This document shows positions 28,206 to 37,758 of a DNA stretch of 37,758 nucleotides, piece by piece. Source of the DNA: Gammaproteobacteria bacterium (GTDB taxonomy: Bacteria > Pseudomonadota > Gammaproteobacteria > QNFE01); the NCBI GenBank assembly GCA_003645455.1, contig QNFE01000017.1, forward strand, positions 1 to 37,758. Direction: 5' to 3'. The notes under the pieces are model-generated. The model searched no databases, was not told the origin of the DNA, and was given only the letters and a program-made list of their open reading frames with translations. A program made the position numbers and the translations under genes. Position 1 is the first letter of the stretch. The number at the start of each line of letters is the position of its first letter.

Positions 28206-29099
28206 ATGAAAAAAATTATAATAGTTAGTCTGATCTTGCTTCTAAATTCCTGTGTAAATAATGGCGGTAGTTTTCGTCACGATCAACATACAGTGCAACC
28301 TGGAGAAACTGTTTATTTTATCGCTTGGAAATATAAACAAGATCCTCAAAAAATAATTCAATGGAATCAATTAGACGATACTGCAAAAATTTATCCAGAT
28401 CAAAAATTATGGATTAGCAGACCACCTAACTACACTGATAACAGCTATTCTCCACCGCCTCCACAGAATAACATCAAGCCTGTATATAATCCTGCCTCAT
28501 CAACACAAAACAAGAATCCTGTGTATGTAGACAACAAACTAAGGTTACCTGTAGGATCAGGTGCAAGTAATAATGAGGCAACCGAAGAGCCCATTGCCTA
28601 CAAAGAGCATTCAACAGAAAATCCTGCACCAAAAACTTCTAAACAAAAAGCACCTTTTCCCGTGCCCAACAAAAGAATTGGCATAACAACACCACAACCT
28701 AAAAAATCTGCCACAAAAACATCAGCAATGTCTAAAATATGGGGATGGCCACATAAAGGCAAGGTTGTCAAAAAATTTTCAATCTCAAAAGTTAATGCCA
28801 GAGGCATAGGTATAACAGGCACCGCAAATAATAAAATTCTTGCTGCCAACAGTGGCACGGTGGTATATAGTGGTGATGGCATAAAAAACTATGGTAATCT
28901 TATTATCATCAAGCACAATAAAACATTTTTAAGTGCCTATGCTCATAATAAGATTATTAAAGTAAAAGAAGGGCAAGCCGTTAATAAAGGCCAGGTTATA
29001 TCAACCATGGGGCCTAAAAAACCATACAATGGGTATCTGCATTTTGAAATTCGCAAACTTGGAACTCCTGTTAACCCCTTAATTTATTTACCGAAATAA
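28206..29099 (+). CDS. NlpD-like lipoprotein: LysM plus degenerate M23 domain
   Basis: A 297-residue lipoprotein. A longer frame opens at 28110, but the ATG at 28206 starts a lipoprotein signal (MKKIIIVSLILLLNSC, Cys16). A LysM domain follows (~27-70, HTVQPGETVYFIAWKY), then a Pro/Lys/Asn-rich linker, and an M23/LytM domain (~180-297: GWPHKGKVVKKFS, ANSGTVVYSGDGIKNYGN, YLHFEIRKLGTPVNP). The first zinc-ligand position reads NARGIGITG instead of HxGxD, so the peptidase site is degenerate as in NlpD and EnvC, which activate amidases at the septum. YqaA lies upstream; MITE copy 8 follows seven bases after the stop. Confidence 0.88.
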   Translation: MKKIIIVSLILLLNSCVNNGGSFRHDQHTVQPGETVYFIAWKYKQDPQKIIQWNQLDDTAKIYPDQKLWISRPPNYTDNSYSPPPPQNNIKPVYNPASSTQNKNPVYVDNKLRLPVGSGASNNEATEEPIAYKEHSTENPAPKTSKQKAPFPVPNKRIGITTPQPKKSATKTSAMSKIWGWPHKGKVVKKFSISKVNARGIGITGTANNKILAANSGTVVYSGDGIKNYGNLIIIKHNKTFLSAYAHNKIIKVKEGQAVNKGQVISTMGPKKPYNGYLHFEIRKLGTPVNPLIYLPK

Positions 29100-29106
29100 T
29101 TAATGT

Positions 29107-29253
29107 GAGACCTTTGCATAATTCAAGTGCGGTTTAGGATAATAAGAAAATAGTGCATATTTTATTAAAAAAAGAGGAGAACAACTTGCTATTTGACGAA
29201 TTTTTTAATAAAATAGGTTGTTATAAACTGTGCTTGAATTATGCAAAGGTCTC
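29107..29253. mobile_element. MITE copy 8 between nlpD-like and cas6-like genes
   Basis: A 147-bp copy with ends GAGACCTTTGCATAATTCAA and TTGAATTATGCAAAGGTCTC. The flanks read AATGT (29102-29106) and AATAT (29254-29258), a 5-bp duplication with one change. Its outward ATG (ATGCAAAGGTCTC) is in frame with the cas6-like gene. Confidence 0.9.
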
Positions 29254-29258
29254 AATAT

Positions 29259-29918
29259 ATGTTTTGGAGTGAGGAACAAAAAACTAACCACAACACATCA
29301 TCAGATGTGATTGATGTTATATTTAAAATAAAAGCTACAAACATACCGTGTGATCATATTTTTTATTTACAGCAAGAAATATTAAGAATAATTCCAGAAT
29401 ATAAAAAACAAAGTCAAAATAGCATTCAAAATATCCATATTAGTGAGCAAGCTTGTGGATGGGTGCGAGACGATAACAAACCATTGCAAATCTCCAAAAG
29501 AACTCACTTAAATCTAAGATTGCATAAAAAATCTATTGATTTAATTGATAATCTAACCCAAAAAACACTGAATATAAACTCTTATCCGTTGCAAATTTTA
29601 AGTTATAAAACTCGTCCATTAAAACCTGCAAAAACTCTACTGTCAAGATTCGTTTATAGCGAAATTGAAAACGAAGAAAATTTTTTAATATCTGTGGCTC
29701 AAGAATTAAAAAAATTAAATATTGATGTTAAAAAAATGCTGTGTGGCAAAACTCGTTTTATCAAAACTTCTCCAAAAATACTCAAAACTCGCAGTCTTTT
29801 AATTGCCGATTTAAAAGCAGTTGATTCTATTAAGATTCAACAAGAAGGCATAGGAGATTACAAATTAGCAGGTTGCGGCATATTTATTCCTTATAAGAAT
29901 CTTGATGCTGTTCGTTAA
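29259..29918 (+). CDS. Orphan Cas6/Cmx6-like endoribonuclease (type I-MYXAN family)
   Basis: A 219-residue protein that fits the Cas6/Cmx6 family: MFWSEEQ at the start, DVIDVIFKIKATNIPCDHIF, HISEQACGWVRDD, HLNLRLHKKSIDLIDNLTQK, then VKKMLCGKTRFIKTSP and TRSLLIADL. The glycine-rich loop near the C-terminus, GIGDYKLAGCGIFIPYK, is the Cas6 mark for RNA binding. Cas6 cuts pre-crRNA in CRISPR repeats. There is no array or other cas gene in this window, and this subfamily is also found apart from CRISPR loci. The frame also opens at 29241 in MITE copy 8, adding MQRSQY; the ATG at 29259 fits the family start. Confidence 0.85.
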   Translation: MFWSEEQKTNHNTSSDVIDVIFKIKATNIPCDHIFYLQQEILRIIPEYKKQSQNSIQNIHISEQACGWVRDDNKPLQISKRTHLNLRLHKKSIDLIDNLTQKTLNINSYPLQILSYKTRPLKPAKTLLSRFVYSEIENEENFLISVAQELKKLNIDVKKMLCGKTRFIKTSPKILKTRSLLIADLKAVDSIKIQQEGIGDYKLAGCGIFIPYKNLDAVR

Positions 29919-34923: not shown

Positions 34924-37758
34924 TTAATTTTCAATTGTTTTAATCTCATCATCTGTGAGCTTGTATAGTTTATAAACCATCTGGTCTATTTCTTGGTCGG
35001 TTTGGTTTATTTGTTCTTGTAATTCGCAGGTGGTTTTTTTATCTTGTTCAAATAACTCTTGCCATTGGTCGGCAAGTTTTCTTTGTTCTAATTTGCTGTT
35101 GAATTTTATTTTGTGGGCTCTGGCATATTCGTTTATAAATTCGTCAAAGTTTAAGTTTTCAAAGTTTTTAAGTTTTTTGGGGACTTTTTCTAACTCTAAA
35201 TCTTTGATGAATTTTTGTTTAACACTTGATAATTTTTTATTTAATTCCAACATTGTGTCGGCTTTTTGTATGAATGGCTCTTTTTGTTGTTGGGTTATTG
35301 TTGGCATGGGAACATTTACCATTTTATTATAATCTAATTTTGCTCGTCCTTTTGTGCTTGAATCGCCATAGGCTACAAAATTTAATTTTTTGTAAAATTT
35401 AAAAATATTTGAGTTTAACCAAACACTTAAAAACTTATCTGCATTTGAAATAAAATATGATGAATTGTTTATATAATAACCATCTTCATCATAATAAAAT
35501 TTATGCTCTACTGCTGTATGGATATAAAGAATTTTCGGATTTTCAAATTGATTGTGATAAGAAATGCTGTCTTGTGTTTCAAACCACTTATTTGATGTCT
35601 TCTTTCTGCTGCCAGTTTTTCCAGATTGTTCTAATCTTTTTTTGCCAAAATTTTCTAAATAATTTTTAATGCCAATATATTTTTCTATGTCAATTTGTTT
35701 TGACGGAAAAGTGGTAATTATGAATTTATTGTTAAAATCAACAGTCCATTTATTTATCTCTGTCCCTGAAAGGTAAGGTTTTAGCAATTCTGCACTTTTT
35801 ATATCTTTTTTAATTAACTCATCTCTCGTAGTTTTGTCAATAATAAAAGCTTCGTTTAATCCTGTTTTAATGCCATATTCAATTCCATTTTTAGAGTATT
35901 CTTGCAATGTAATTGAATTGTTTTTCATTTTGTTGAGAATGTTTAATTCATCTTTGGTGTTAAAAACCCAAATATCAGGGTTTAAATCATTTTGATTGAC
36001 TAATATTTTTTGATATTTGTTGTTTATAAAATCATCAATTTGTTTGATTGGCGAATAATAAAATTCATCATTTTGTTTCGTTTTGCACAATAGCATAATT
36101 TGAGAATCAGTTGAGGCATCTTCAAAAACATTTAATTCAAAAAAATCAATGAGTTTTAATATTTTATGTTTTGAGGTAAACTGCCTTAACTCTTTTCCGT
36201 ATTTTGTTTTATAAAATTTATTTGGTGTAATAAAACCTAACAAACCATCATCTTTTAAAACACTTATTCCAACTTCATAAAAATATACATATAAATCTGC
36301 TGTGCCATTACCAACTTGAAAATTGTTGACAAAATATTGTTTATCGGTTTTTTGCAATAATTCCTGTCTCACATAAGGCGGATTGCCTATGACTATATCA
36401 AAACCACCGTTGTATTCTGGCACAAATGCTTGCTCATATTTAATTATAAATCTTGCAATGATTTTTTCTAATTTTATGTTTTTTGGTAACTCATGTTTTA
36501 TCCTGTTGTTTTGGATGTATTCTGCTGTGTTTGTTATTTGTTCCTCTGTTTGAATTAGTTTTTTGCCAAATTTTTGTGTCCACATGGCTACATATGGTTT
36601 TGACAAGGGGACATGTCCCCTTGTTAGTTCTACGGTGGATTTATTTTTTTCTTTTGACAAGGGGACATGTCCCCTTGTTAGTTCTACGGTGGATTTATTT
36701 TTTTCTTTTGACAAGGGGACATGTCCCCTTGTTAGTTCTGTTGTGTTTGTTGTTCTGCCCATAGTTTTATTACAAATTTTTGATGTCATAGCTTTAATTT
36801 TCCCTACTATTTTAGATACCTCCTCTTCTTCACAAACAAGCAACATATGCAAATGATCGCCACAAACATTAAAAGCCAATATATTTAATTTATCTTTTTG
36901 GGTAATATCATAAATTGTCTTGCAAATAACAACCTCTTCTTTTTGGGTAAAATATATGGGTTTTCCTGTTTTAACTTTATAATCTACCATTCTCTGCGAA
37001 TATCTTGAATTATGAGTTGCAGTTGTTATATGCCATACTTGTTTTTTCTTTTGTTTAAATATCTCTGGGAACTCTGCTTGCCAGTTAAAAGCATTGGCTG
37101 TTATTGTTTTGTCATCTATCAATGAATTACCACATTTTATTTTGTTGGCAAGTTTTGTCAGTGGTCGCCGGTTATCGGCGGTTTTCAGCCATAGGGATAG
37201 TTTGGCGATCTCGGTGGCAGATTCGTTTATATCTACTCCGTATAGGTTGTTTTCTAAGATGGATTTGTTTATATCGTGTTGGTTAAAAATATCACGGAAT
37301 AATAAAAAATCCTCTTGCAATGTTTTATGTTCGGTTACTAAAAACTCTAATGCTTGATTTAAAAAAGCACCACTACCGCAGGCGGGGTCTAATATTTTAA
37401 GGTTCAGCAACCAGTTTTTATATTCTGTTAGATTTTCTTTTGTTTGGATCTCTTGAAGGTTAAGCTTTTTATGATTTTTTGGTTTTATGATATTGGTTAT
37501 TTTTAACTGCTGTTTTTTGTTTTGGCAAAGTGTGCCTATTGTGTTATCAACTATATATTTGGTTATATACTCTGGGGTATAAAATATACCGTCCTTTTTT
37601 CTTTTTGATACGATTTTTTGTCTTAGCAAGGGGACATGTCCCCTTGTCAGTTCTGTCGTATGTCCCCTTGTCAGTTCTGTCGTATGTCCCCTTGTCAGTT
37701 CTGTCGTATGTCCCCTTGTCAGTTCTGTCGTATGTCCCCTTGTCAGTTCTGTCGTATG
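34924..37758 (-). CDS. Eco57I-like N6-adenine methylase with embedded HUH/Y1 transposase domain (5' end beyond window)
   Basis: At least 901 residues counted from a TTG at 37629, but that frame stays open to the window edge (43 more codons of TELTRGHT repeats), so the start is outside or uncertain. The methylase part has GIFYTPEYITKYIVDN, motif I DPACGSGAFL (~81) and motif IV IGNPPYVRQ (~414), then a TaqI-like target-recognition region (~540-800, AYGDSSTKGRAKLDYNKM). Between them, ~195-400, is a Y1 domain: WHITTATHNSRYSQR, FNVCGDHLHMLLV with the HUH His (259, 261), and EYIQNNRIKHEL with Tyr371 as the candidate nucleophile. Three TRGHVPLS repeats (~300-343) lie inside it. Related methylases go straight from a FPEIF segment to GGFDxVIGNPPY, so the domain is an in-frame insertion. 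Confidence 0.8.
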   Translation of the reverse strand, partial: HTTELTRGHTTELTRGHTTELTRGHTTELTRGHTTELTRGHVPLLRQKIVSKRKKDGIFYTPEYITKYIVDNTIGTLCQNKKQQLKITNIIKPKNHKKLNLQEIQTKENLTEYKNWLLNLKILDPACGSGAFLNQALEFLVTEHKTLQEDFLLFRDIFNQHDINKSILENNLYGVDINESATEIAKLSLWLKTADNRRPLTKLANKIKCGNSLIDDKTITANAFNWQAEFPEIFKQKKKQVWHITTATHNSRYSQRMVDYKVKTGKPIYFTQKEEVVICKTIYDITQKDKLNILAFNVCGDHLHMLLVCEEEEVSKIVGKIKAMTSKICNKTMGRTTNTTELTRGHVPLSKEKNKSTVELTRGHVPLSKEKNKSTVELTRGHVPLSKPYVAMWTQKFGKKLIQTEEQITNTAEYIQNNRIKHELPKNIKLEKIIARFIIKYEQAFVPEYNGGFDIVIGNPPYVRQELLQKTDKQYFVNNFQVGNGTADLYVYFYEVGISVLKDDGLLGFITPNKFYKTKYGKELRQFTSKHKILKLIDFFELNVFEDASTDSQIMLLCKTKQNDEFYYSPIKQIDDFINNKYQKILVNQNDLNPDIWVFNTKDELNILNKMKNNSITLQEYSKNGIEYGIKTGLNEAFIIDKTTRDELIKKDIKSAELLKPYLSGTEINKWTVDFNNKFIITTFPSKQIDIEKYIGIKNYLENFGKKRLEQSGKTGSRKKTSNKWFETQDSISYHNQFENPKILYIHTAVEHKFYYDEDGYYINNSSYFISNADKFLSVWLNSNIFKFYKKLNFVAYGDSSTKGRAKLDYNKMVNVPMPTITQQQKEPFIQKADTMLELNKKLSSVKQKFIKDLELEKVPKKLKNFENLNFDEFINEYARAHKIKFNSKLEQRKLADQWQELFEQDKKTTCELQEQINQTDQEIDQMVYKLYKLTDDEIKTIEN
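36602..36739. repeat. 54-bp tandem repeat with REP-like palindrome inside the methylase gene
   Basis: Two full 54-bp units and a 30-base partial third, at 36602, 36656 and 36710. Each begins with the palindrome ACAAGGGGACATGTCCCCTT plus GT. As 54 is a multiple of three, the coding strand gains an 18-residue unit with ELTRGHVPLSK each time. It lies between the HUH and the Tyr segments of the Y1 domain. Confidence 0.92.
37627..37758. repeat. REP-like palindrome followed by a 24-bp tandem array (runs off the edge)
   Basis: A perfect 20-bp palindrome (CAAGGGGACATGTCCCCTTG, 37627-37646) followed by 24-bp units starting at 37659, 37683, 37707 and 37731, and beginning again at 37755. Each unit keeps the right half of the palindrome (ATGTCCCCTTGTCAG) and adds TTCTGTCG. 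In the methylase frame they read TELTRGHT. The array continues beyond the window. Confidence 0.92.

Follow-up and report, generated by a model that had tools for sequence, protein, structure and literature searches.

A stand-alone Cas6 subfamily linked to rDsr sulfur oxidation in Gammaproteobacteria

CRISPR guide RNAs are produced by the enzyme Cas6. What, then, might a Cas6-family protein do at a locus with neither a CRISPR array nor any other recognised cas gene? The question is raised by a gene on contig QNFE01000017.1 of a Gammaproteobacteria bacterium, all 37,758 nucleotides of which were analysed and are referred to here as the window. The original prediction had read the gene as a solitary Cas6/Cmx6-like ribonuclease that may process hairpin RNAs other than CRISPR transcripts, speculatively those of the MITE or palindromic repeats abundant in the window. 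We approached the question through the protein itself, the CRISPR systems of the source genome, the distribution and neighbours of homologous genes, and the RNAs that might serve as a substrate.

A Cas6-family gene behind nlpD and a MITE

The features at the locus are as follows.

29107-29253, strand not assigned: MITE bounded by terminal inverted repeats GAGACCTTTGCATAATTCAAG; 5 bp separate its end from the conserved start codon.
29241-29258, plus strand: N-terminal extension of the mechanical open reading frame, a MITE-derived reading; the family alignment starts at M-F/Y-W.
29259-29918, plus strand: stand-alone protein of the Cas6/Cmx6 family, 219 aa when read from the start that the family conserves (PF09559, TIGR02807, AlphaFold, Foldseek).
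29355-29357, plus strand: codon of His33 (IPCDHIF), the probable catalytic residue by conservation, located where the first helix begins.
29847-29885, plus strand: C-terminal glycine-rich loop GIGDYKLAGCGIF, with G197, G199, G205 and G207 nearly invariant.

The mechanical call gives an uninterrupted open reading frame of 225 aa (29241-29918, plus strand). Its ATG at 29241 falls within the terminal inverted repeat of the MITE, and the ATG at 29259 is the start kept across the family (M-F/Y-W...); the intervening extension is probably untranslated, judging from the alignment. The gene had been placed behind nlpD and a MITE, and indeed nlpD ends at 29099 and the MITE follows directly. The element is real, with 15 matches to its terminal inverted repeat in the window where 0 were expected, and its end may supply the gene with a Shine-Dalgarno-like AAAGG. 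About eight MITE copies with the end GAGACCTTTGCATAATTCAAG are spread over window positions 822-29253, the 15 end matches being found within 37.8 kb. Among 202 loci, those of the source genome alone contained the exact end sequence of the MITE, and the adjacency of MITE and gene is a local insertion.

In a profile search the window protein matched the Pfam family PF09559 (Cas6) at 168.7 bits (E 1.9e-49, cut-off 26.7) and the NCBIfam family TIGR02807 (cas6_cmx6) at 106 bits (E 2.4e-30), above the curated cut-off of 98.85. Matches of this strength put the Cas6-family assignment far from chance, and nearly all relatives tested also pass the TIGR02807 cut-off. By sequence, 8fcj chain B (E 2.7e-10), a Cas6 from the Cascade of a type I-B CAST, was the sole PDB relative found. 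Similarly, an AlphaFold model built from a 55-sequence alignment (pLDDT 85.8, pTM 0.82) had a CAST Cas6 (8fcu_B, TMq 0.79) as its top Foldseek match, followed by Pyrococcus Cas6 (PfCas6) and Cse3, and a double-ferredoxin RAMP fold is predicted. The protein thus carries the marks of the Cas6 superfamily in its sequence profile, its fold, its glycine-rich loop and the histidine of its N-terminal ferredoxin domain; the identification as a Cas6/Cmx6-like protein with a conserved glycine-rich loop was correct. The source genome, 2.06 Mb in 83 contigs and 98.4% complete, has one PF09559 gene.

In the family alignment, 142 of 143 main-clade members have His33, as do four cyanobacterial homologues, three of which lie beside other cas genes. 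Asn takes its place in one gamma member (L050) and in the CAST Cas6, and Tyr in one beta-type member (L196). His33 lies where the first helix begins, which is also the place of the catalytic histidine in other Cas6 enzymes, and is probably catalytic itself. The pair G67-W68 is present in 143 of 143 main-clade members and missing from the CRISPR-side sequences. All of the clade motifs W3, G67-W68, R81 and K213 are found in the window protein, which departs from the clade at N66 (Cys) and H212 (Tyr).

CRISPR systems of the source genome and CRISPR-side relatives

Apart from a REP-type tandem at 36598-37758, the window showed no CRISPR array, and on reading its open reading frames of at least 100 aa by eye we recognised no further cas gene, in agreement with the earlier view that neither lies near the gene. 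Arrays in the rest of the genome were sought around Cas1 and Cas6 matches, and this search revealed two CRISPR systems. A type I-F variant on contig C28 has Csy4/Cas6f in its operon together with a Cas5fv-type protein, a Cas2-Cas3 fusion, Cas1 and about 37 repeats. A type III-A system on contig C3 comprises Cas10, RAMP proteins, an interrupted Cas1 and an array, and a separate Cas6 of family PF10040 lies on contig C70 directly upstream of an array with the same repeat (the repeat is shared by locus L094 on C3, with the interrupted Cas1, and locus L104 on C70, behind the PF10040 Cas6). Since both systems have their own unrelated Cas6, the window Cas6 is probably tied to neither. The gene is stand-alone at its locus and belongs to a large group of stand-alone homologues, but the genome is not free of CRISPR, as it carries the I-F variant and III-A systems. 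The genome search for arrays and cas genes that had been proposed as a check showed no type I system using the window Cas6, the I-F variant having Cas6f. The type I-MYXAN setting (Cas3, Cas8/Cmx1 or Cmx8, Cas5 and an array) was likewise absent from the window and 61 neighbourhoods, and no CRISPR array was present in 64 homologue neighbourhoods.

A tree of 78 rows, 73 of them dsr-linked and only five from the CRISPR side, separated the two sets with support of 100/99, the bootstrap being not fully settled. The window row is a long branch (1.71), and the window Cas6 does not group with CRISPR-associated TIGR02807 members. Three of the four cyanobacterial rows adjoin cas3 and cas8-type genes. The fourth, L198 (7974-8765), is a Cmx6-labelled gene on a Gloeobacter plasmid, with PAPS-reductase-family genes nearby and no cas gene annotated at a distance of up to 8 kb. 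A search of plasmids for close relatives returned only four distant cyanobacterial matches.

The nearest described proteins are the Cas6 proteins of type I-MYXAN and I-B CAST systems (Cmx6; TIGR02807, PF09559; 8fcu/8fcj chain B), which belong to the same family, resemble the window protein in fold (TMq 0.79) and have in common with it the histidine of the DH motif (in cyanobacterial members), the C-terminal glycine-rich loop and Arg87. Unlike them, the subfamily of the window protein has no cas operon or array and is linked to the genes of reverse dissimilatory sulfite reductase (rDsr), a sulfur-oxidation system; the W3, G67-W68 and PHK motifs are its own, and the CAST Cas6 has Asn in place of His33. 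The canonical PfCas6, Cas6e/Cse3 and Cas6f/Csy4 share the RAMP fold (PfCas6 and Cse3 by Foldseek) but belong to different families, and in the source genome it is the Csy4 and PF10040 proteins, not the window Cas6, that accompany actual CRISPR arrays.

Co-occurrence and gene linkage with dsr genes

To describe the distribution of the family we used an evenly drawn sample of 369 Gammaproteobacteria genomes (in the GTDB sense, thus including the former Betaproteobacteria), in which DsrA was counted by TIGR02064 at E < 1e-30. PF09559 was found in 117 of the 369 genomes, with a single match in all but one, where one gene is split in two pieces; DsrA was found in 118 and Cas1 in 136. Cas6 and DsrA occurred together in 110 genomes, Cas6 only in 7, DsrA only in 8 and neither in 244, an odds ratio of 479, with a Fisher p of 1.5e-74 that overstates the strength of the association because genomes are treated as independent. 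There was no association of Cas6 with Cas1 (both in 50, Cas6 only in 67, Cas1 only in 86, neither in 166; p = 0.13), so that 67 of the 117 Cas6 carriers are without a Cas1 match. Indeed, reduced genomes of 1.0-1.1 Mb (G039, G141, G254, G286 and G350) retain Cas6 without Cas1.

The exceptions to the pairing of Cas6 and DsrA are more telling than the p-value, and those inspected were mostly at contig ends. Seven of the eight dsrA-only genomes were opened, and there the contig stops at or just upstream of dsrA, in the place of the gene module described below (L223-L229); for example, dsrA-only genome G122 retains the 62-aa open reading frame of this module ahead of the contig break. Similarly, the "Cas6-only" genome G317 has a dsrA fragment beside Cas6, and other Cas6-only genomes have the gene on short contigs or at contig ends. 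A second sample, drawn across the phylum, contained five dsrA-bearing genomes of the class, identical with its five Cas6 carriers, and the four new Cas6 genes adjoin dsr genes. Cas6 was found in none of the 48 DsrA-bearing genomes of other classes, whose dsr clusters differ in being rDsr without Cas6. The link is therefore class-specific, and rDsr chemistry as such needs no Cas6; being lineage-specific, the link owes part of its statistical strength to shared ancestry. Distances among Cas6 and DsrA sequences were correlated in a Mantel comparison (r = 0.34, a value reached in 4 of 2000 permutations); genes that travel together should show this, and shared species history would give the same result. 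Named relatives are mostly from sulfur-oxidiser lineages, including Thiohalobacter, Thiogranum, Thiomargarita, Parabeggiatoa, Marithrix and Thioploca, together with many Gammaproteobacteria bins; one relative's bin is labelled as archaeal, probably through faulty binning or naming.

We then compared segments of about 14 kb containing the gene from 60 genomes, as a rule a single genome for each family, together with the window, and clustered the neighbours. This survey of stand-alone homologues, which had also been proposed as a check, revealed a recurrent rDsr context: in 40 of 61 families, Cas6 and dsrA or dsrB are no more than 4.1 kb apart, with a median distance of 1.7 kb. The dsrAB genes are transcribed away from Cas6 and are followed by dsrEFH, dsrC, dsrM and dsrK. 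DsrEFH beside dsrAB is a mark of the oxidative, reverse type. Thus the sulfur-oxidiser dsr cluster (dsrABEFHCMKL...) is both linked to Cas6 and co-occurs with it, and a further partner belongs to the DsrC family.

On the Cas6 side, the genes form a module of a TauD-like oxygenase, a conserved 62-aa open reading frame, a protein of about 227 aa, Cas6 and a DsrC paralogue without cysteines. The oxygenase (TauD/TfdA family, PF02668) is upstream of Cas6 on the same strand in 40 of 61 loci. In four out-of-class genomes without Cas6 (L203, L205-L207), a TauD-like gene is also found divergent from dsrA, so the TauD-like gene is dsr-linked more widely. The 62-aa frame (MLxLSEILLQ...DVKPPFxDTPEDWEDRLEAAF) is upstream of Cas6 in 46 of 60 loci (L033-L092); the gap between the TauD-like gene and Cas6 had been considered as a noncoding RNA, a candidate that we rejected since the gap encodes this conserved small protein. 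Between the 62-aa frame and Cas6, the protein of about 227 aa is present in 17 loci and has no Pfam match. Directly downstream of Cas6, 28 loci among L033-L092 have a DsrC-family paralogue (PF04358) with an invariant RKGGY end and without the two C-terminal cysteines of the operon DsrC. DsrC homologues without these cysteines have reportedly been named RspA and proposed to be regulators; the module partner is likewise a PF04358 protein with the RKGGY end, and differs in its link to a Cas6 homologue.

In the source genome the parts of the module are on separate contigs. A dsrABEFHCMK operon is on C4, a TauD-like gene (35% identity) on C22 and RKGGY-type DsrC paralogues on C80 and C31; the 62-aa frame was not found in this genome, and the window Cas6 is beside neither dsrAB nor module genes. 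The lack of informative neighbours in the window is a peculiarity of this rearranged genome. Taken with the wider distribution, we are nearly certain that the window Cas6 is a member of a non-CRISPR, rDsr-linked Cas6 subfamily, one that is large, mostly vertically inherited and a companion of rDsr sulfur oxidation in Gammaproteobacteria.

The protein family and its label were known already; the stand-alone subfamily with its metabolic context appears to be new. A literature search, mostly outside subscription journals, found no report linking the Cas6/Cmx6 family to dsr genes; in the papers found, the term cas6 was used for CRISPR loci only, and none dealt with a non-CRISPR stand-alone Cas6/Cmx6. 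A subfamily labelled "type I-MYXAN CRISPR-associated" thus accompanies a central energy pathway in about one third of the sampled Gammaproteobacteria genomes, and adds a false signal whenever CRISPR genes are counted in sulfur oxidisers.

Candidate RNA substrates and competing readings

We searched the dsr operons for hairpins that might be cut. Hairpins with z < -3 were present in 11 of 24 dsrA/dsrB gaps and in 8 of 18 dsrC/dsrM gaps, and five control gaps had few or none. In genomes outside the class that lack Cas6, only 2 of 16 dsrA/dsrB gaps had such a hairpin (Fisher p = 0.04), a comparison confounded by phylogeny. The dsrC-dsrM gap of the source genome itself (L095:14920-15086, C4) holds a strong hairpin (z = -8.0), a REP-like palindrome that is the same as in the window. 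The hairpin sequences in dsr gaps are not conserved, and no dsr-gap hairpin was found in the reduced genomes L079, L091 and L042 despite their Cas6, nor in the dsrA/dsrB gap of the source genome, though Cas6 is present. The intercistronic hairpins are therefore a weak lead to the substrate. An Rfam scan of the window and the source genome's dsr locus yielded two tRNAs only, and no known RNA element.

The reading we prefer, at a probability of about 0.6, is that of an rDsr-linked, non-CRISPR Cas6 that probably cuts a host RNA. Its computed support consists of family, fold, single copy, co-occurrence with dsrA, the lack of an association with cas1, a module divergent from dsrAB, separation in the tree and conservation of the histidine. 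The chance that the protein is an active RNase on a host transcript we consider even. The protein would still bind, and probably cut, one particular host RNA, and this cutting would tune or mature the expression of sulfur-oxidation genes; the module partners, namely the TauD-like oxygenase, the 62-aa protein, the protein of about 227 aa and the cysteine-less DsrC paralogue, would act together with Cas6. We suggest tentatively, at somewhat less than even odds, that Cas6 was recruited early in Gammaproteobacteria as a dedicated RNA-processing regulator of rDsr, forming a new five-gene module that has been kept in highly reduced genomes.

An alternative that stops short of cleavage is a regulator that binds RNA or protein and keeps the Cas6 fold to recognise a dsr mRNA or small RNA, catalysis being dispensable. 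The clade-specific G67-W68, the two members without His33 and the presence in the module of a non-catalytic relative of another protein, the cysteine-less DsrC paralogue, are consistent with such a role, but the retention of His33 in all but one main-clade member is more than binding alone would demand, and we consider this alternative rather unlikely. A more specific version of the preferred reading, in which Cas6 processes the dsrA/dsrB and dsrC/dsrM hairpins and so sets subunit mRNA ratios, seems improbable at present: the excess of hairpins over control gaps and over genomes without Cas6 speaks for it, but the lack of sequence conservation, the Cas6-bearing genomes and gap without hairpins and the confounding by phylogeny speak against it, and the hairpins may do no more than stabilise mRNA in the usual way.

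Borrowing of Cas6 is common among type III systems, and the source genome has III-A arrays; together with a score that passes the cut-off of a curated CRISPR family, this would fit a trans-acting Cas6 that processes crRNA for arrays elsewhere in the genome. Such a role is very improbable, given the many carriers without Cas1, the 64 neighbourhoods without an array, the Cas6f within the I-F variant operon and the position of the III-A repeat array on C70 directly behind its PF10040 Cas6. Cleavage of MITE or REP hairpin transcripts, as originally proposed, might be favoured by the abundance of MITEs in the window, by the copy abutting the gene and by the REP-like hairpin in the source genome's dsrC-dsrM gap, but it is scarcely credible for a subfamily kept over 61 sampled families when the exact MITE end is confined to loci of one genome. 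The idea of a role on other RNAs therefore survives in part: the protein probably acts on a non-CRISPR RNA, but MITE or REP cleavage is unsupported for a gene kept across those families in an rDsr context. Finally, the CRISPR family label and the long branch of the window protein might suggest a vestige, now decaying, of a CRISPR system that has been lost; this is practically untenable for an intact, single-copy gene, and for the subfamily, retained in genomes of 1.0-1.1 Mb with its active-site histidine conserved, it is already refuted.

If the RNase reading is true, the rDsr-linked Cas6 would be a clear case of a CRISPR component shifted to housekeeping work, and would reveal a hitherto unrecognised layer of RNA-level control over sulfur oxidation, a process underlying many animal symbioses and a large part of the sulfur cycle. 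Which RNA the subfamily binds becomes a simple, testable question.

The far end of the window is also rich in repeats. The tandem at 36598-37758 is built of 54- and 24-bp units carrying REP-like palindromes (AAGGGGACATGTCCCCTTGT), and the contig ends inside the 24-bp array. Overlapping it, on the minus strand at 34924-37629, is a 901-aa open reading frame of the Eco57I restriction-modification type that contains an in-frame segment of an IS200-like transposase (Y1_Tnp) and REP-derived repeats (TELTRGHVPLSKEKNKS).
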